From positions 1 to 20,272 of the IMG/VR virus record IMGVR_UViG_3300043409_001212: a stretch of DNA of 20,272 nt; one strand, written 5' to 3'. The notes under the pieces were generated by a model. It saw nothing but the letters and a program-made list of their open reading frames with translations. It was not told the DNA's origin and ran no database searches. Made by a program: the position numbers and the translations under genes. Positions 6,297 through 19,281 of this stretch are shown one piece after another (the first letter of the stretch is position 1; each line of letters opens with the position of its first letter). The stretch comes from a virus.

Positions 6297-9074
6297 TCAC
6301 CCTGTCACCGTCAGTGCGTTGGTGGTCAGGTTGAGCGACACCGTGCAGGTGCGCCCGCCGTAGGTGGCAGACCAAGTGAACACGCCGCCGGACACACTGG
6401 CCACCTCGCCGCTGACGCGGTTGCTGCCCATCTCCAGCCGCATGGGGGCCACCACGCCGGTGCTGGCCGCCCACTGCACGTAGTTGTGCCAGTAGGCGTG
6501 ATTGGCGTCTGCCAGCGTGCCATCGGGCGATTCAGGATAGGCTGAGTTCAGAATGGCGTTGGCTGGCGGCGCCGTGCCAGATGGCCAGGCGCTGTCGGTG
6601 ATGAGCTGCGCGGTGGGCGCCACGATGCCACTGCCTGCAATGGGCGTGAGCACTGCGCCAGCCACGGCGTCCACCGTGCGCGTGGCGCTTGTGCTGGTGA
6701 CGCCGAAGAGGTTGATGGGGCTGCCTACCCCTGCGCTGCTGGGCGCGGCTGGGGTATGGAAGCACCACTCGAACGTGTAGCTGGTGCCCCAGGCTGCGCG
6801 GTCAACAATCAGCAGCAAGCCGGGTGAAAACCAAAGCAAGGTGCGAACTGCTGCGGTGTGGACGTATGACGCTTTGCGGTACGCCTTGGACAAATCAAGC
6901 TGCAAGTAGCCCGAGTGTTCGCCTTCGAAACTGCGCAGGGGAATGCTGCGGTTTTGCGAGCCGGTGTTTGCGCCGTCCACCTGCGTGCCCAGTAGGCCAT
7001 TGAGCGCCCAGCAGTTGTGCGAGCGGCTGCTGTTGGCCCAATTCGTTTTGTGTTGGTCGGTGATGCCGACTGACCCCGGCAAGCTGTATGCCGCGATGAG
7101 CAAGCGGCGGCCATTGGCCGCAGCCTGGAACCCCCCCGCCCCGCCATTGCCGTGGTTCCAGCGGCCACGGCGGCGGACGTTGACCAAGACGCTGGGGGCA
7201 TCGGGGTTGTAGGGGTCACTGGTGGCAGACCAAACGGTTTCCAGCGCGTCTGTCCACAGGCGCTTGTGAGCGGGTGCGGTGTGCACTGTGCCGGTGTCAA
7301 CGTTGGGCACGTTGAGGTGGACGAATGGCCAGTTCGGATCGCTGTCGAGCGCATTGATGTTCCAGCCTTGAGATTGCAGGATGGCTGGCAGATAAGGGCT
7401 GGCTGTTTTTGATGCAATGGTGACGGCAAACTGGGGGCTTGGCACCGCGTAGTGGTCATCACCATCTGCCAGGCGCGGGCCGGAGCTTTTGCGCATTTGG
7501 AACGCCGCCAATTCGGCGGCTTTTTGCCACCGCGGCTGTGTCCAGAATGCGTCGCTGATGCCCAGCGCGTTGACGAGGAAATCAATGCCAGGGGAGAAGT
7601 AGCCCATGAAGCCGTGGTAGGCCGCGCCTTCCCAGTTGCCGCCCATGTCGGTGTTGCTGGCGTAGTGCCGGTGCAGCAGCACAGAGGCCGCAGCACAGAA
7701 CACCGGCAGGTTGGCCGCCAGGCCAAAGTGGCTGGCGGTGAACTCGGCGGCAAGCCCGGCTTGCGATGCTGCGCCCGCGCACAGCACAGCCATCCATTCG
7801 TGGATGTGCCCAAGAAAATCACCCCGATCCCACGGGCCGCGGCCCATGTAGCTGTTGGCGAACGCCTGCACCCACAGGGGCACCCCCCACGAGGCGTAGC
7901 CAGAGGGCTCCAGCGTCATGCTGAGCATGTAGCCCAGGTGGTCTCGGTAGGCGTCCTTGTCGGCCTGGGTGAGGCTGCCCCAGAAAGCGCAGGTGCCATA
8001 GAACAAGGCGATGAGCTTGAAGCGGCCTGGATCATCGCTAAGGTGGCTGAGCGAGGTGCAGCGGGTCATCGAGGCGGTATAGGTGCCGTTGGTGACGCCC
8101 ACAGGCACGGGGAAGGTGCCCACCGTGGTGGATGACATCGTCAAAACACGGCCGCTGCTGTTTAAGGTGGCGTTGCTGGCGCCTTCAATCGCCACATTGG
8201 TGGTGCTGCCCACCGCGTACCGGGTGGCGGCGGGGAAGGTGATTGTGGCGATGCCGTCACCGACGCCGGTGCTGCCGGTGACCACGATGTTGGTGGGGGC
8301 GTACTTGCCGGTGCTCCAGGCGAGCATGCTTCTCAGCCTGCGCAATCCTTCCGTTAGCGCCGAGGCGTTGGCGTCGGCAGCGTACAGCCAGGCGCACTTG
8401 AGAATTCGAGACGCTTCAAGTTGTGAGGCACCATTTTGGTCAGTTTGGCTGGCCAACGATGCGCCCACAAAAGAAGCCAGGCCGTTTTGACCCGTGGCCA
8501 TGGCGGTGTAGTGATCGCGCGAGTGGCCGCCAGCCTGGTAGTGCACCAGGCTGGCTGGGAAGCCGCGCTGGCCCACGGGGCGAGCAGCGAACGCAGAGAA
8601 CAGATCTGCGCGTTTTGGAATGTTGAGCGTGACGGCTTCGGCGCTGACTTCGAAATCGATCCAGCCGGACTGTGCGGCAGGCGTACCGGGGTAGTAAGTT
8701 TGGTCGGTGTAGCGCCACTGGTAGCGCACGCCCCGCGTCAAAGGCGTGGCAAGGGGGTGGGCCACTTCGTTGCGGCCTGGATCACTGGTGGCACTGAAAA
8801 GCACCCCACCACCGGAGAACAGGCGCACTTCCACCAGCCACACGGTGGCATCGTTGCCGCTGCTGCTGTAGGGCATGCGCTTGGTGAAGCGGTACAGCGG
8901 TTGGGTGACACCAATGACTTCGCCCCCCTTTGGGTAGAAAGTGGGGAGTGTCGATTCGGTGCCTGCGTCGTACAGCGCCCAGCCTTCGGCCGTGGGGTCA
9001 TCATTGGCCCAGGCCACCCATGGAAGGGATGCCGCCGCGCGGCCTGCGCCTGTTTTTGCAAGTGGCTTGGCCAT
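6297..9074 (-). CDS. heparinase II/III-like polysaccharide lyase, putative virion depolymerase
   Basis: 925 aa. Residues ~50-145 form a beta-sandwich-like N-terminal region (PLYRFTKRMPYSSSG, then W-L-V-E-V-R-L-F and RGVRYQWRYTD), like the FnIII-type entry domain of heparinase II/III and oligoalginate lyases. Residues ~155-560 are helical with conserved aromatics (HIHEWMAVLCAG, MGGNWEGAAYHGFMGYFSPG), fitting an alpha/alpha toroid. Residues ~635-770 match the HepII_III core: HGNGGAGGF, a Gly-anchored strand, SRSHNCWALNG (the sHNtvxvdG motif) and LLWFSPGLLLIVDR. A beta-type insert (about 262-336) interrupts the toroid. The expected HxHxD motif reads HGN, so activity is not certain. There is no signal peptide. 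It starts 3 bases after the fibre-like gene's stop. A role in cutting host exopolysaccharide is inferred. Confidence 0.68.
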   Translation of the reverse strand: MAKPLAKTGAGRAAASLPWVAWANDDPTAEGWALYDAGTESTLPTFYPKGGEVIGVTQPLYRFTKRMPYSSSGNDATVWLVEVRLFSGGGVLFSATSDPGRNEVAHPLATPLTRGVRYQWRYTDQTYYPGTPAAQSGWIDFEVSAEAVTLNIPKRADLFSAFAARPVGQRGFPASLVHYQAGGHSRDHYTAMATGQNGLASFVGASLASQTDQNGASQLEASRILKCAWLYAADANASALTEGLRRLRSMLAWSTGKYAPTNIVVTGSTGVGDGIATITFPAATRYAVGSTTNVAIEGASNATLNSSGRVLTMSSTTVGTFPVPVGVTNGTYTASMTRCTSLSHLSDDPGRFKLIALFYGTCAFWGSLTQADKDAYRDHLGYMLSMTLEPSGYASWGVPLWVQAFANSYMGRGPWDRGDFLGHIHEWMAVLCAGAASQAGLAAEFTASHFGLAANLPVFCAAASVLLHRHYASNTDMGGNWEGAAYHGFMGYFSPGIDFLVNALGISDAFWTQPRWQKAAELAAFQMRKSSGPRLADGDDHYAVPSPQFAVTIASKTASPYLPAILQSQGWNINALDSDPNWPFVHLNVPNVDTGTVHTAPAHKRLWTDALETVWSATSDPYNPDAPSVLVNVRRRGRWNHGNGGAGGFQAAANGRRLLIAAYSLPGSVGITDQHKTNWANSSRSHNCWALNGLLGTQVDGANTGSQNRSIPLRSFEGEHSGYLQLDLSKAYRKASYVHTAAVRTLLWFSPGLLLIVDRAAWGTSYTFEWCFHTPAAPSSAGVGSPINLFGVTSTSATRTVDAVAGAVLTPIAGSGIVAPTAQLITDSAWPSGTAPPANAILNSAYPESPDGTLADANHAYWHNYVQWAASTGVVAPMRLEMGSNRVSGEVASVSGGVFTWSATYGGRTCTVSLNLTTNALTVTG

Positions 9075-15689: not shown

Positions 15690-15956
15690 TCAGGCGGCTT
15701 TCGCGCCAGCAACTGGAGATCCATCAGCCCCCACGATTTCCGGCCAGATGAGGAACCAGTCGCTCGCCCTGAGGTGCCACCGCCTGACCACATACCCAGA
15801 ACGCTCTTCAACTCGAACGCAAACGGCTGGGTCAAGTGTTTTCTGTCCGTAGGAGACGTTGCGAAGGTGATTCGCCGTCGTGCCACAGGCAATTGCGAAG
15901 GCCTCCCGAGCTTCATCAGACCCGAGGCTTCGAAGAAATGAGCGAAGTGTTTCCAT
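15690..15956 (-). CDS. YdaS/Cro-like transcriptional regulator
   Basis: 88 aa from the ATG at 15956. Longer in-frame starts at 15965 and 15986 lie in or upstream of the -10 box and would not be transcribed from the promoter described here. The protein reads METLRSFLRSLGSDEAREAF, AIACGTTANHLRNVSYGQKT, then C-V-R-V-E-E-R-S-G-Y-V-V-R-R-W-H-L-R and W-P-E-I. That is the YdaS/Cro pattern: HTH, an A-V/I-x-x-E-R-x-T/S-G segment, then R-x-x-L-R-x-x-D-W...W-P-E. It should act against the CI-type repressor encoded divergently. The predicted transcription start falls on the A of the ATG, which suggests a leaderless message. Confidence 0.78.
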   Translation of the reverse strand: METLRSFLRSLGSDEAREAFAIACGTTANHLRNVSYGQKTLDPAVCVRVEERSGYVVRRWHLRASDWFLIWPEIVGADGSPVAGAKAA

Positions 15957-15963
15957 CGCCCGC

Positions 15964-15992
15964 ATTTCACCAAATAGTGAAGGCATCGTCAA
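15964..15992 (-). promoter_or_regulatory. leftward early promoter (PR-like)
   Basis: Minus-strand -35 TTGACG (complement of 15987-15992), 17-bp spacer, -10 TGAAAT (complement of 15964-15969). The -10 box overlaps one operator and the -35 box is abutted by another. It has the same design as the rightward promoter at 17475-17503. It drives the Cro-like gene and the operon after it. Confidence 0.75.
15966..15981. promoter_or_regulatory. repressor operator, left site 1
   Basis: TTCACCAAATAGTGAA, a near-perfect palindrome overlapping the -10 box of the leftward promoter. It matches the consensus TTCACC-N4-GGTGAA at 11 of 12 arm positions. Confidence 0.75.
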
Positions 15993-16006
15993 CACCAACC
16001 AGTGAA
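15991..16006. promoter_or_regulatory. repressor operator, left site 2
   Basis: AACACCAACCAGTGAA, at the upstream edge of the -35 box of the leftward promoter and centred 25 bp from left site 1. It has the same geometry as the pair at the rightward promoter. Confidence 0.7.
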
Positions 16007-16027
16007 AAGACGATGCTTTACTGCGCC

Positions 16028-16471
16028 ATGGCCGATGACGCCCGGATCAGAACCGAAAACCTGCGAGCACTTTGGGATGCGCGGGGCTTCACAGTCACGT
16101 CTGCGCCAAAGGTACTTGGTCGATCGGCAAGTTTTTGGTCTGATCTTCGCAAAGGCAACAAGTCGTTTGGGGAAAAGCTCGCGCGCGACATCGAAGAGCG
16201 GCTCCAACTGCCTCGCGGATGGCTTGATCAAGCGCACGACACAAACAATGGCCTTTCTACGTCGCCCGCTCCGCCGCCGCGCGATTTCGCTGACCCCCGG
16301 TTTGTGGACGATGAGGAATTCGAAATCGTGCGCGACTTCCGCGACCTGGCAGATGGTGACCGTGACCGCTTCAAGGCCAGCTTGAGGCAGATGGCCGATG
16401 CGTACCGGATCTACCGAGACGGCGTGATCTCCGATCTCAGGGCCAAGGGAAAACTGAAGGAGGAAACATGA
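16028..16471 (+). CDS. CI-type phage repressor, short form
   Basis: 147 aa from the ATG at 16028 (MADDARIRTENLRALWDARG); an ATG at 16013 would add five residues. The N-terminal ~65 residues form an HTH domain (SAPKVLGRSASFWSDLRKGN, then SFGEKLARDIEERLQLPRGW), a form common in repressors of beta-proteobacterial phages. After a Pro-rich linker comes a helical C-terminus (FEIVRDFRDLADGDRDRFKA). There is no S24/LexA-type peptidase domain, so RecA-stimulated self-cleavage is not expected. It is flanked by two promoters with matching palindromic operators and lies divergent from the Cro-like gene. A weak -10 (TTTACT, 16017-16022) just before the ATG may serve as its own promoter, as lambda PRM does. 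It is the first gene of a three-gene operon. Confidence 0.82.
   Translation: MADDARIRTENLRALWDARGFTVTSAPKVLGRSASFWSDLRKGNKSFGEKLARDIEERLQLPRGWLDQAHDTNNGLSTSPAPPPRDFADPRFVDDEEFEIVRDFRDLADGDRDRFKASLRQMADAYRIYRDGVISDLRAKGKLKEET
16457..16463 (+). promoter_or_regulatory. strong ribosome-binding site inside the repressor gene
   Basis: AAGGAGG, 4 bases before the ATG of the PEP-CTERM gene and inside the last codons of the repressor gene. Together with the ATGA overlap it indicates that the surface protein is meant to be translated efficiently from the lysogenic message. Confidence 0.8.
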
Positions 16472-17088
16472 AAGCAATCACCATCGCTATGGCCGCAATG
16501 CTGGCTGCAGGCGCCACCCATGGGACACTGCAAGACCGAGGCCCGCTGATGTTCTTTGATGACGTGGCCAACCTCACGTTCTACAAGGTAAGCGCAGCAG
16601 GTAGCGCATTCGATGACGGCTTCTCTGCCAGCGATGGCCTGGTGAGCTGGGCATCCGCTGGCGCCTGGGCTGCAAGCCTTGCCGTGACAAACACCTTCGG
16701 CGTGTCCAGCACCGGCTGGCGCCTTCCCGCCCAAACCGAGCCGACCTATGCCGCCACAGGCAGCGCCTTCGGCTGGTATGCCGATCTTTACGACCTGTCG
16801 TCCAACATCATCCCCACCGGTGGGAATTCGATCCTCACCGTGAATGGCTGGCTTGTCCGTGAGCCCACCCACGTATGGCCGCCATCGCTGGCCTGGACGT
16901 ATGGCAAGGGCTTCGGTGTAGCCGTCGCAGCGCTCACACTCACAGACGGCAACGTGTTCCACGACTATGGCCAGGCCTGGGCCGTGCACTCGGGCGACGT
17001 GGGCGCGGTTCCCGAGCCTGCCGCCATTTCGCTTGCGGGTGCGGGTGCTGCATTGCTTGGGCTTCTGGCGCTGCGTCGGCGCACTTGA
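16468..17088 (+). CDS. PEP-CTERM sorted surface protein (moron in rex position)
   Basis: 206 aa. Residues 1-19 are a signal peptide (MKAITIAMAAMLAAGATHG). The body opens TLQDRGPLMFFDDVANLTFY and has GLVSWASAGAWAASLAV and GWRLPAQTEP, the layout of DUF1566/Lcl-like PEP-CTERM proteins (DRGxGLIYDD..LNITW..W..A..WA..L..GWRLPT). The end is a full PEP-CTERM signal: VPEP at 181-184, a hydrophobic helix (~186-202) and RRR at 203-205. Known PEP-CTERM proteins are exported by Sec and processed at this signal by a host exosortase, often in strains making exopolysaccharide. The ATG overlaps the repressor stop (ATGA) with a strong AAGGAGG upstream, so it should be made in the lysogen. No exosortase is in the window. 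Surface alteration or superinfection exclusion is inferred. Confidence 0.88.
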   Translation: MKAITIAMAAMLAAGATHGTLQDRGPLMFFDDVANLTFYKVSAAGSAFDDGFSASDGLVSWASAGAWAASLAVTNTFGVSSTGWRLPAQTEPTYAATGSAFGWYADLYDLSSNIIPTGGNSILTVNGWLVREPTHVWPPSLAWTYGKGFGVAVAALTLTDGNVFHDYGQAWAVHSGDVGAVPEPAAISLAGAGAALLGLLALRRRT

Positions 17089-17090
17089 AG

Positions 17091-17330
17091 ATGCCAACAA
17101 CGGATGAACTTGCGCGCCAGATCAATGTTCTGAATTCAGCCGTGCATGTGCTGTGCGCGGTGCTTACCGCAGAACAGCAAGCGCGCGCCTCTGTTCTACT
17201 CGCTGAAGCCTTGCAACGCGTTCAAGCCAATCTCGAATCCTCTGCCGCTTCGGACGAAGAGCTTTCCCGCCACGTCGAGCTACAAGCCTCTTTGCTGAAG
17301 GCGTTGCGATTCCCGTCGTCGTGTCCATGA
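17091..17330 (+). CDS. small helical protein, third gene of the lysogenic operon
   Basis: 79 aa starting MPTTDELARQINVLNSAVHV, two bases after the stop of the PEP-CTERM gene. It is largely helical and rich in Leu, Ala, Glu and Gln (LTAEQQARASVLLAEALQRV), probably a coiled coil or a helical hairpin. The phrase LCAVLTAEQQAR resembles short hypothetical proteins of phages and beta-proteobacteria. There is no signal peptide or membrane span. A larger minus-strand frame covers part of it but shows no family pattern and runs into operator DNA. Function unknown; its operon suggests a role in lysogeny or together with the surface protein. Confidence 0.65.
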   Translation: MPTTDELARQINVLNSAVHVLCAVLTAEQQARASVLLAEALQRVQANLESSAASDEELSRHVELQASLLKALRFPSSCP

Positions 17331-17397
17331 CGTTGGCCCGAAGTTGGCCTGATTGATCGTAGAGCCACATTCCTGCAATCTCCATCTCTTGCTCCAT

Positions 17398-17420
17398 GCC
17401 CGCCGCGCGCGGGCTTTTTT
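17398..17420 (+). terminator. Rho-independent terminator of the lysogenic operon
   Basis: GCCCGC-CGCGC-GCGGGC (17398-17414), a perfect 6-bp GC stem, followed by six T (17415-17420). It lies 67 bases after the last gene of the repressor operon and just before the operators of the rightward promoter, so it isolates lysogenic transcription from the early operon. Confidence 0.9.
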
Positions 17421-17440
17421 GTGCCTGGATCGTAGGTGTT

Positions 17441-17456
17441 TTCACCATCGAATGAA
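17441..17456. promoter_or_regulatory. possible third operator, right region
   Basis: TTCACCATCGAATGAA, with one arm matching the consensus exactly and the other at 4 of 6. It is centred 20 bp upstream of the next site. It may be a weaker auxiliary operator. Confidence 0.45.
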
Positions 17457-17460
17457 TAAA

Positions 17461-17476
17461 TTCACCGTTTGGTGTT
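17461..17476. promoter_or_regulatory. repressor operator, right site 2
   Basis: TTCACCGTTTGGTGTT, overlapping the first two bases of the -35 box of the rightward promoter. It differs from the perfect palindrome only at the last two bases. Confidence 0.78.
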
Positions 17477-17503
17477 GACATTCCTATCACCGTTTGGTGA
17501 AAT
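17475..17503 (+). promoter_or_regulatory. rightward early promoter (PL-like)
   Basis: -35 TTGACA (17475-17480, consensus), 17-bp spacer, -10 TGAAAT (17498-17503). It is embedded between two operators exactly as the leftward promoter is. With a 7-base discriminator the transcript would start at A17511, the first base of an ATG. Confidence 0.82.
17486..17501. promoter_or_regulatory. repressor operator, right site 1
   Basis: ATCACCGTTTGGTGAA, covering most of the -10 box, centred 25 bp from right site 2. It shares the core CACCGTTTGGTG with that site. Confidence 0.8.
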
Positions 17504-17553: not shown

Positions 17554-17904
17554 ATGGGCTACACGGCACAGGAAGACAGGGTTCACGAACAAAGCGTGAG
17601 CATCTACGCCGAGTCTTACAACACGTTGCTGAAGGATTTCCAGGGCGCGGCGTTGGCTGGCAAAGACATCGAGATTCCCGCGCCTGCCTGGTTAAAGCCG
17701 GGCGTGTTCCCCATCAGCAAAATCATCTTTGATGATCTGGCCGAAGACAACGGCCGCGAGATGCTGGCCATCATTGCAGCCTGCGCCCGCGGTGAGGACG
17801 CCACCTTGCGCGCCTCAGTTTGGATCAGGCGCAACGCTGAGGCCTATGCAGCCGAAAACGTGGACGACATGGCACGCGGGATCCTGCGCGACATGGATTG
17901 CTGA
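17554..17904 (+). CDS. first gene of rightward early operon, function unknown
   Basis: 116 aa from the ATG at 17554 with AGGTGA 4 bases upstream; a longer frame from 17494 starts inside the operator and precedes the transcript. The protein has an acidic, helical character (VSIYAESYNTLLKDFQGAAL, then KIIFDDLAEDNGREMLAIIA, NVDDMARGILRDMDC) and one Pro-rich turn (EIPAPAWLKPGVFPISK). There is no signal peptide, membrane segment or known motif. First-expressed phage genes are often small anti-host or anti-restriction proteins; nothing in the sequence proves that here. Confidence 0.7.
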   Translation: MGYTAQEDRVHEQSVSIYAESYNTLLKDFQGAALAGKDIEIPAPAWLKPGVFPISKIIFDDLAEDNGREMLAIIAACARGEDATLRASVWIRRNAEAYAAENVDDMARGILRDMDC

Positions 17905-18200: not shown

Positions 18201-18394
18201 GCATCGCAGGCGTCAGTGATTCTGAGTGGGCCGACTACGAGGCCAGCAGCAAGCCAAACCCATTGCCAGGGGTGTCGGTGGTGCTGCTGCTGCAAAGCGG
18301 CGCGATTGAAGGGCCGTTTCGTGTGACGCAGCCGGTCACTGTATCAACGTGGCAGCGCATCAAGCGGGCTGTCAGAAACTGGAGCCTGAAGTGA
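18197..18394 (+). CDS. small early protein, function unknown
   Basis: 65 aa starting MSIAGVSDSEWADYEASSKP, coupled at both ends (ATGA before, GTGA after). The middle is a short beta-type segment (PGVSVVLLLQSGAIEGPFRV) and the end is basic and helical (WQRIKRAVRNWSLK), perhaps DNA- or membrane-binding. No family is recognised. It directly precedes the exonuclease gene and may be an accessory to recombination, but that is only position. Confidence 0.6.
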   Translation: MSIAGVSDSEWADYEASSKPNPLPGVSVVLLLQSGAIEGPFRVTQPVTVSTWQRIKRAVRNWSLK

Positions 18395-19281
18395 AAACAA
18401 TGATAGGCATTTTCGAAGGCATGCCGTTTGACGAGTACCTTGCGGTCGATGCTTTGAGCGCCACCGGCTTGAAACAGCTTGCGCGTTCTCCCTGGCACTA
18501 CAAGCACCGCATCGACACAGACCCAACGCCTGCGATGATGCGCGGCACCCTGGCCCACTGCGCGATTCTTGAGCCTGGCGCCTTTGCGCAGCGCTACGTG
18601 GTGCAGCCTGTTGACGCGCCTCGCAGGCCATCGAAGGCCCAATGGTCAGCAAAAAATCCGAGCGCTGAAAGCATCGCGGCGATGAAGTGGTGGGAAGCCT
18701 TCAACGATTCTCTTGCCGGGCGCGATGTTGTTTCAGCCGATGACTTCAGCTTGTGTGCACAGCAGCTGCAAGCCATTGCATCAAACACTGAACTGTCGGG
18801 GCTTTTGAAGCATGGGCGGGGTGAGGTTTCAATCTTCTGGATCGACAAAGCAACCGGCCTCTACTGCAAGGCCAGGCCGGATTGGCTGCCATCGCCTATT
18901 GGCAGCACGATCATGCCGGTGGACATCAAGACATGCATTGACGATTCACCCAGCGGCTTCGGCCGCGCTGCTGCCCGCCTGAGGTACGACTTGCAAGACG
19001 CGCACTACACGGCAGGCATTGAAGCCGTTACCGGCTTGCACGTTCAGGCGTTCGTTTTCGGTGCCGTCAGCAGCAAGCCCCCTGTTTTGGCTGTGCCCTA
19101 TGTGCTTACCGATGAGATCAGGGCGCAAGGCCGAGATGAGCGCCGCGAGCTGATTGACAAGTTGGCCTGGTGCCAGCGAGAGAACACCTGGCCAGCCTAC
19201 GGGCAAGGCTTCCAGATGCTGGATTTCCCAGCCTACGCCAAAGCTGGCGGAGATGTTGAAGTTGAATGGAGCGAATCATGA
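18391..19281 (+). CDS. RecE/exonuclease VIII-like phage nuclease
   Basis: 296 aa from the GTG at 18391 (GTGA overlap, GGAG site six bases upstream); ATG 18400 is the alternative. The N-terminus (DEYLAVDALSATGLKQLARS, PWHYKHR) is the standard start of exonuclease VIII-type PDDEXK proteins, where S-x-T-x-L-K is followed by S-P-x-H/Y. Catalytic features are present: GTLAH (H56), E145, ARPDWL (D164), VDIKTC (D178, K180) and the QxxxY motif of RecB-family nucleases (Q202, Y206). E. coli RecE is far longer because of an N-terminal extension; this is the nuclease domain alone, as in many phages. It would chew 5' ends to make 3' tails for annealing. An annealase should follow to the right. Confidence 0.87.
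   Translation: MKTMIGIFEGMPFDEYLAVDALSATGLKQLARSPWHYKHRIDTDPTPAMMRGTLAHCAILEPGAFAQRYVVQPVDAPRRPSKAQWSAKNPSAESIAAMKWWEAFNDSLAGRDVVSADDFSLCAQQLQAIASNTELSGLLKHGRGEVSIFWIDKATGLYCKARPDWLPSPIGSTIMPVDIKTCIDDSPSGFGRAAARLRYDLQDAHYTAGIEAVTGLHVQAFVFGAVSSKPPVLAVPYVLTDEIRAQGRDERRELIDKLAWCQRENTWPAYGQGFQMLDFPAYAKAGGDVEVEWSES

Follow-up and report, generated by a model that had tools for sequence, protein, structure and literature searches.

A gene for a PEP-CTERM protein lies directly behind the repressor in the lysogeny operon of an epsilon15/BPP-1-like podovirus, between two operator-like regions. Its product is a diverged homologue of a chromosomal family of PEP-CTERM proteins, and the corresponding position in related phages (the 'slot'), where it is occupied, is biased toward envelope-type proteins. 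Two points are unusual, the exosortase-type tag on a lysogeny-operon gene and the leaning of the slot toward envelope proteins among these phages. The window, by which we mean the whole stretch of DNA analysed, is a virus record of 20,272 bases, and it is the source of the only copy of the gene that we found in viruses. An earlier note on this DNA had reported a PEP-CTERM gene in a lysogeny operon, and we confirm that observation.

The phage

The structural genes are on the minus strand and include a head-tail connector (PF12236, E 2e-99), a capsid protein (Phage_capsid_2, E 2.2e-70) and a tail protein (phrog_376). The replication and Cro-like genes come next, also on the minus strand, followed by the repressor and the PEP-CTERM gene on the plus strand and then by a rightward operon. 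In tblastn searches the nearest named relatives of the connector were found in Yersinia phages YeP4-6 (56%) and Alcaligenes phage Piluca (42%), in whose annotation epsilon15 is cited for tail proteins; among related phage loci, L002 and L003 were closest, with 82% identity. Because YeP4-6 and Piluca are the closest named relatives of the connector, we assign the phage to the epsilon15/BPP-1-like podoviruses, an assignment with which the capsid and the tblastn matches to YeP5 and Piluca agree. Judging from its immunity region, we take the phage to be temperate. We noticed no integrase in the part of the ORFs examined in this 20-kb record, which is possibly a fragment.

Also among the structural genes is a 925-aa ORF (window 6297-9074, minus strand) that by eye resembles a polysaccharide lyase and is possibly a tailspike depolymerase; it had no Pfam or PHROG family, no phage match by tblastn, and scores at chance level only against the PDB.

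The PEP-CTERM gene occupies the rex position

The immunity region and the genes next to it are arranged as follows.

15690..15956, minus strand: Cro-like or early repressor gene, divergent from the repressor (matches the transcriptional repressor family phrog_35 with E 5.9e-5; the listed ORF is 15690-15998, and by eye its ATG is probably at 15956)
15964..16006: OR-like operator region, with a palindrome at 15966-15981 (TTCACCAAATAGTGAA) and a weaker site at 15990-16006
16013..16471, plus strand: repressor, 152 aa, starting at 16013 or 16028 (phrog_5736, E 1.6e-10, and phrog_12107, E 7.3e-10; transcriptional regulator/repressor)
16457..16463, plus strand: AAGGAGG, the ribosome-binding site for the PEP-CTERM gene, separated from its ATG by four bases
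16468..17088, plus strand: PEP-CTERM protein, 206 aa (ORF reading, Pfam and family profile)
17091..17330, plus strand: 79-aa ORF in the rexB position, two bases after the PEP-CTERM stop, soluble-looking
17398..17420, plus strand: stem-loop and T run resembling an intrinsic terminator (site 17398-17414, then six T)
17440..17503: OL-like operator region, with sites at 17440-17456, 17461-17476 and 17486-17501
17554..17904, plus strand: first gene of the rightward operon toward the recombination genes (from the ORF list; no Pfam or PHROG family)
18349..19281, plus strand: exonuclease VIII-type recombination gene (phrog_412, E 2.4e-72; PF12684)

The ATG of the PEP-CTERM gene overlaps the TGA of the repressor (16469-16471) as ATGA, a four-base overlap. 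The repressor, the PEP-CTERM gene and the 79-aa ORF all lie between the OR-like and OL-like regions, with the terminator-like site at the end. The PEP-CTERM gene is thus behind the repressor, on the same strand and between two candidate operator regions, which by its anatomy is the rex position. The earlier note had placed it there in a lambda-like operon, and the case is now stronger than at first reading, as operator-like sites flank the module on both sides. With phage genes and operator-like sites to either side, the gene is phage-borne and not part of a chromosomal flank.

The two operator-like regions resemble each other closely. Read by eye, both contain TTGAC(A/G), 17 nt and TGAAAT reading outward, which in the OL-like region gives a putative early promoter (TTGACA at 17475-17480, TGAAAT at 17498-17503, 17-nt spacer); a promoter scan listed no site for these by-eye promoters. 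The operator pattern matched four times in the window (one palindrome being counted on both strands) against 0.21 expected, and none of 100 shuffles reached four. Furthermore, 15964-16006 is an inverted copy of 17461-17503 at 34 of 43 bases, while the maximum in 200 mononucleotide shuffles was 25 (0/200).

The earlier note had the operon ending at an intrinsic terminator. A terminator-like site is present there, but a scan found two such sites where 2.2 were expected in shuffles, so that the evidence is positional only, and the 79-aa ORF intervenes between the site and the PEP-CTERM gene.

In lambda, two genes stand behind the repressor (cI-rexA-rexB), between two operator regions, and RexA is a cytoplasmic sensor. 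The likeness here consists of two genes behind the repressor, two operator-like regions and the terminator-like site at the end. The difference is that neither the PEP-CTERM protein nor the 79-aa protein showed homology to RexA or RexB in Pfam, PHROG or PADLOC, and that the first product looks exported, in contrast to RexA. The 79-aa ORF matched no family above cut-off. The repressor itself matched Pfam HTH_31 weakly (14.6 bits, under the cut-off of 27) and gave no match to the S24 peptidase domain, which is present in 26 of 50 related records; with no match to this autocleavage domain, induction of the phage may work differently. A pattern search found no relatives of the repressor in viral contigs, and none were found in 80 related loci at E 1e-3.

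The protein carries a PEP-CTERM sorting tail

The tail and the start of the gene inside the repressor stop, behind AAGGAGG, are read directly in the sequence, as the earlier note had them, and the tail scores above the cut-off of PF07589 (22.6 bits against 20.7). With NCBIfam TIGR02595 it stays below (13.5 bits against 16), so that one of two curated tail models was passed. The C-terminus, AVPEPAAISLAGAGAALLGLLALRRRT, combines a PEP motif, a hydrophobic helix and a basic tail. At the other end, the N-terminus MKAITIAMAAMLAAGATHG looks signal-like, judged by eye and by a hydropathy maximum of 1.83. Between them the layout runs from a signal-like helix (residues 1-19) through an N-terminal block shared with the family, which reaches to about residue 93 and includes GWRLP at 83-87, and a diverged centre (about 94-165) to WAVHSGDV at 171-178, VPEP at 181-184, the hydrophobic helix and RRR. 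The GC3 of the gene is 0.71, and seven other genes of the window span 0.56-0.735. Structure prediction was uninformative, with a mean pLDDT of 45 for the protein aligned with 12 relatives and of 50 for a chromosomal relative, and a profile search of solved structures gave no match at E up to 0.01.

The protein is a diverged homologue of a chromosomal PEP-CTERM family

The PEP-CTERM protein belongs to a family found in chromosomes of Nitrosomonas, Sulfuricella, Thiohalobacter and Methylococcaceae. A scan of named genomes matched 18 loci, 17 of which are one family; the other, L099, reads as a transporter and was dropped as a chance match. For a family profile we used 12 of the 17, omitting partial, duplicate or broken copies (L086, L087, L093, L094 and L096). 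With the row of the window removed, the 12-relative profile picked the PEP-CTERM ORF out of 311 six-frame ORFs of the window with E = 1.5e-20, the next best having 0.28, and homology to the chromosomal family is therefore beyond chance. The profile matched in two blocks, one from the N-terminus to just behind GWRLP and one from WAVHSGDV to the tail, and left the centre unrecognised; identity was 30-42% over the alignment of 12.

The motifs of the family are a signal peptide, stretches of the ITWLADAN, GWRLP, SEMGHLFY, YWSGTE and AWAVHSGDV types, and PEP or VPLPA tails. The phage protein has in common with its chromosomal relatives the signal-like N-terminus, a YYDxxLNITW-like start, GWRLP, AWAVHSGDV and a tail of the PEP-CTERM or VPLPA kind. 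The chromosomal proteins keep a SEMGHLFY/YWSGTE-type centre and a match to Lcl_C (DUF1566, PF07603), which was found in all seven relatives tested and was over the cut-off in five, whereas the phage protein has neither; in Pfam it gave no match to PF07603 at E up to 1. We therefore describe it as a homologue of the Lcl_C PEP-CTERM family and do not file it as an Lcl_C protein. In Legionella, the C-terminal domain of Lcl binds sulphated glycosaminoglycans, according to a passage on that protein (PMC11162425). Since the phage protein has no Lcl_C match and a centre that the profile does not recognise, a lectin-like function may have been lost.

The relatives sit in chromosomes, while the phage gene sits behind a phage repressor. 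When 16 phage proteins were compared with 20 loci that have chromosomal matches, none matched at E 1e-3, so that those loci are not the same prophage, although they may hold prophages of other types.

Other viral copies and the literature

No other viral copy of the gene was found by protein patterns or by the DNA pattern WAV(R/H/Q)xGDV..PEP (0 matches), searches whose scope is this family and tail type. Besides L001, which is a copy of the window, the strict DNA pattern recovers 9 of 19 chromosomal family loci, many loci having other tails such as VPLPA. Searches by tblastn of 50,697 phage and 72,556 plasmid records (the phages with the PEP-CTERM protein and with a relative) also gave no copy. 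A looser pattern yielded 33 viral stretches; in these and 80 related loci, four weak family-profile scores (E 0.047 to 0.16) were rejected, as they do not read as family members. A regular expression for the tail had no match in 113 viral loci, a weak test given that it matches the PEP-CTERM protein but just 5 of the 12 relatives. PF07589 was above its cut-off in none of 50 related phage records (50 of 80 covered), and the family profile found no slot gene among the 80 related loci.

The earlier note knew of no described phage gene of this kind. For the 206-aa protein, family-specific searches found no second viral copy, but the statement is too broad for the tail: in a passage on a Yellowstone virome, the genes said to have moved into virus contigs include those of 13 TIGR03118 proteins, a family whose C-terminus putatively interacts with exosortase (PMC11003980). 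Virus-borne exosortase-type tails are therefore not wholly new. The TIGR03118 proteins resemble ours in being virus-borne with an exosortase-type C-terminus, yet they are another named family, and the passage on the Yellowstone contigs gives neither operon context nor function (PMC11003980). In largely open-access literature on PEP-CTERM/exosortase and phages, we found no report of phage use of PEP-CTERM sorting in a lysogeny operon, PMC11003980 being the nearest; in the excerpts concerned, PEP-CTERM genes are bacterial only (PMC12642866) and phage go unmentioned (PMC1569441).

The slot behind the repressor favours envelope proteins

In L003 a lipoprotein-like gene begins inside the repressor stop. 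Because this locus has an envelope-type gene coupled to its repressor, we mapped repressors across the related records. The sample comprised 35 phages, 33 from 50 of the 80 related records together with the isolates Piluca and YeP5; the 33 were 26 with S24 and seven with HTH_3 only at 51 bits or more, HTH_3-only matches below 51 bits being left out. To count as a slot gene, an ORF had to begin with ATG, encode 50 aa or more and lie no more than 30 nt from the repressor stop, and the start closest to the ATGA position was taken. Products were called envelope-like if they had a hydropathy of at least 1.6 or a lipobox, a crude measure that a quarter of control ORFs pass. As controls we took 332 ORFs that follow genes other than the repressor with the same kind of coupling, in loci of at least 9 kb.

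A slot gene was present in 22 of the 35 phages, none being found by the rule in the other 13, and 8 of the 22 had the exact ATGA overlap with the repressor. The products were envelope-like in 21 of 22 cases, against 83 of 332 control ORFs; the remaining one, from L021, looks cytoplasmic. A stricter hydropathy limit of 2.0 left 15 of 22 slot products and 32 of 332 controls. Fisher's test gives p 2e-11 for this bias, a value that is overstated, as the rule was post hoc, the phages are related and some are near-duplicates (L056/L067, L070/L073 and L026/L115). An earlier, looser count had 23 of 28 slot genes over the hydropathy limit and 155 of 477 control ORFs. The later rule corrected picks in the wrong frame in L062 and L114 and excluded more distant genes, including that of L047 (a Rap1a gene, +53 nt).

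The slot genes fall into lipoprotein-like, Rap1a, Adhesin_E and inner-membrane types. Pfam named four of ten slot proteins tested and found no family above cut-off for the other six. The lipoprotein-like and the Pfam-named genes are the following.

L003, 3030-3395: lipoprotein-like
L014, 639-1082: lipoprotein-like
L062, 4118-4363: lipoprotein-like
L114, 1435-1740: lipoprotein-like
L074, 3819-4259: Adhesin_E
L072, 2572-2907: Rap1a
L047, 2910-3239: Rap1a (outside the rule)
L070, 1340-1708: Rap1a

The slot genes of these podoviruses share with the PEP-CTERM gene their position, in several cases the ATGA overlap, and predicted export; they differ from it in family and in anchoring. Outside the count, bbp33, the gene after cI in BPP-1, reads as a small membrane protein and starts in the cI stop. 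Epsilon15 does not share the arrangement: some 220 nt, with three annotated repressor sites, separate its repressor from the next annotated gene. Two similar tiny proteins, each with a hydrophobic N-terminus ending in cysteine, are encoded at L044:3460-3648 and L024:3149-3388 and start in the repressor stop.

The slot survey is the more general result: in epsilon15/BPP-1-like podoviruses, an occupied position behind the repressor predicts an envelope protein. It also provides a list of genes that may be regarded as candidates for superinfection exclusion.

A proposed role in the lysogen

The PEP-CTERM gene is best read as the exosortase-sorted version of the envelope slot of related phages. 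We propose that it is an envelope-protein 'moron' in the rexA position that is expressed in the lysogen, sorted by exosortase if the host is able, and alters the envelope, likeliest for superinfection exclusion; we regard this proposal as evenly poised between right and wrong. The idea of the earlier note, that the phage uses host sorting to change the surface of the lysogen, is thereby partly supported. For an envelope function of this gene, the slot survey is indirect evidence.

We infer expression, exosortase processing, surface location and a role in exclusion or biofilm along these lines. The gene would be co-transcribed with the repressor in the lysogen, and its product would be exported by the signal peptide and then anchored in the inner membrane through the PEP-CTERM helix. 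Given a host exosortase, the protein would be released and sorted to the outer surface, where it would alter the envelope of the lysogen. The most likely benefit would be superinfection exclusion, the surface polysaccharide or the receptor of competing phages being masked or remodelled; a second possibility would be stickier, polysaccharide-associated cells. PEP-CTERM/exosortase sorting is found in many environmental bacteria, and an exosortase scored over the cut-off in 11 of 15 genomes with chromosomal matches to the family. Among 399 genomes of one order, the connector had only distant matches (26-31%), in 13 genomes; the PEP-CTERM protein matched two genomes with E up to 1e-8, including the Sulfuricella genome that served as centre. 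If the protein is processed, it would represent a route of lysogenic conversion that turns the matrix-sorting system of the host to the use of the prophage, with relevance to flocs and biofilms.

We favour exclusion since certain prophage proteins are known to keep other phages out by acting in the cell envelope. Examples are Ltp of TP-J34, a prophage-expressed, surface-exposed superinfection-exclusion lipoprotein (PMC3952083), and SieA of P22, a prophage-expressed superinfection-exclusion protein (PMC10883804). Similar to these, the PEP-CTERM gene sits in an operon predicted to be expressed in the lysogen. Ltp is a lipoprotein and SieA a membrane protein, whereas our protein has an exosortase-type tag and exclusion by it is a proposal; to our knowledge, no superinfection-exclusion protein with an exosortase tag is known.

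We consider this the best explanation given the tail above the PF07589 cut-off, the family match at E 1.5e-20, the ATGA coupling with AAGGAGG and the mirror-image operator-like regions, with further support from the slot survey, bbp33, the exosortases in 11 of 15 genomes, the Lcl_C body of the family, and the glycosaminoglycan binding of the Legionella Lcl domain. Against it we count the single record, the TIGR02595 score under cut-off, the diverged centre and the inflated odds of the slot survey. A more specific version, in which a lysogen surface protein made through the host exosortase and associated with polysaccharide shuts out competing phages, as one of many interchangeable envelope proteins in one repressor-coupled slot, is possible but tentative.

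The main rival, which we find somewhat unlikely, is that the gene mainly benefits the host, encoding a matrix or adhesion protein that causes lysogens to aggregate or to retain exopolysaccharide and does not act directly on the entry of phages. Passages on floc-forming bacteria report that Zoogloea resiniphila requires PEP-CTERM proteins to form flocs (PMC9012009) and that a protein of this kind takes part in floc formation in Aquincola tertiaricarbonis (PMC9850573), and the relatives of our protein carry Lcl_C, a carbohydrate-binding domain in the passage on Lcl (PMC11162425). However, most slot proteins are small and of lipoprotein, periplasmic or inner-membrane type, and they share no adhesive character, one Adhesin_E match excepted, so that blocking of entry fits better, and in the phage protein the Lcl_C-like centre has diverged.

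It is rather unlikely that the phage picked up a PEP-CTERM gene of a host behind its repressor by accident and that the gene is drifting there, of no function to phage or host. In favour of this reading, the relatives found are chromosomal, the centre has diverged and family-specific searches found no other viral copy. But the frame is intact, the ribosome-binding site is good and the start is coupled through ATGA, the protein retains both conserved ends, sorting tag included, and the GC3 of 0.71 lies inside the range of the seven other genes; moreover, the envelope bias of the slot would become a coincidence.

Slightly less likely again, in our judgement, is a plain inner-membrane protein whose PEP tail is just a membrane anchor and makes no use of exosortase, as in the inner-membrane types of other slots. 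Several slot proteins do look like such types, and TIGR02595 is under its cut-off; yet the tail has a PEP motif at the helix border and a basic end and is over the Pfam cut-off, and it is preceded by a long, apparently exported body. Finally, a chimeric assembly of phage sequence and a PEP-CTERM gene from a host, conceivable for a single virus record, is very improbable in view of the four-base overlap with the repressor and of the matching inverted operator-like regions and phage genes on both sides.
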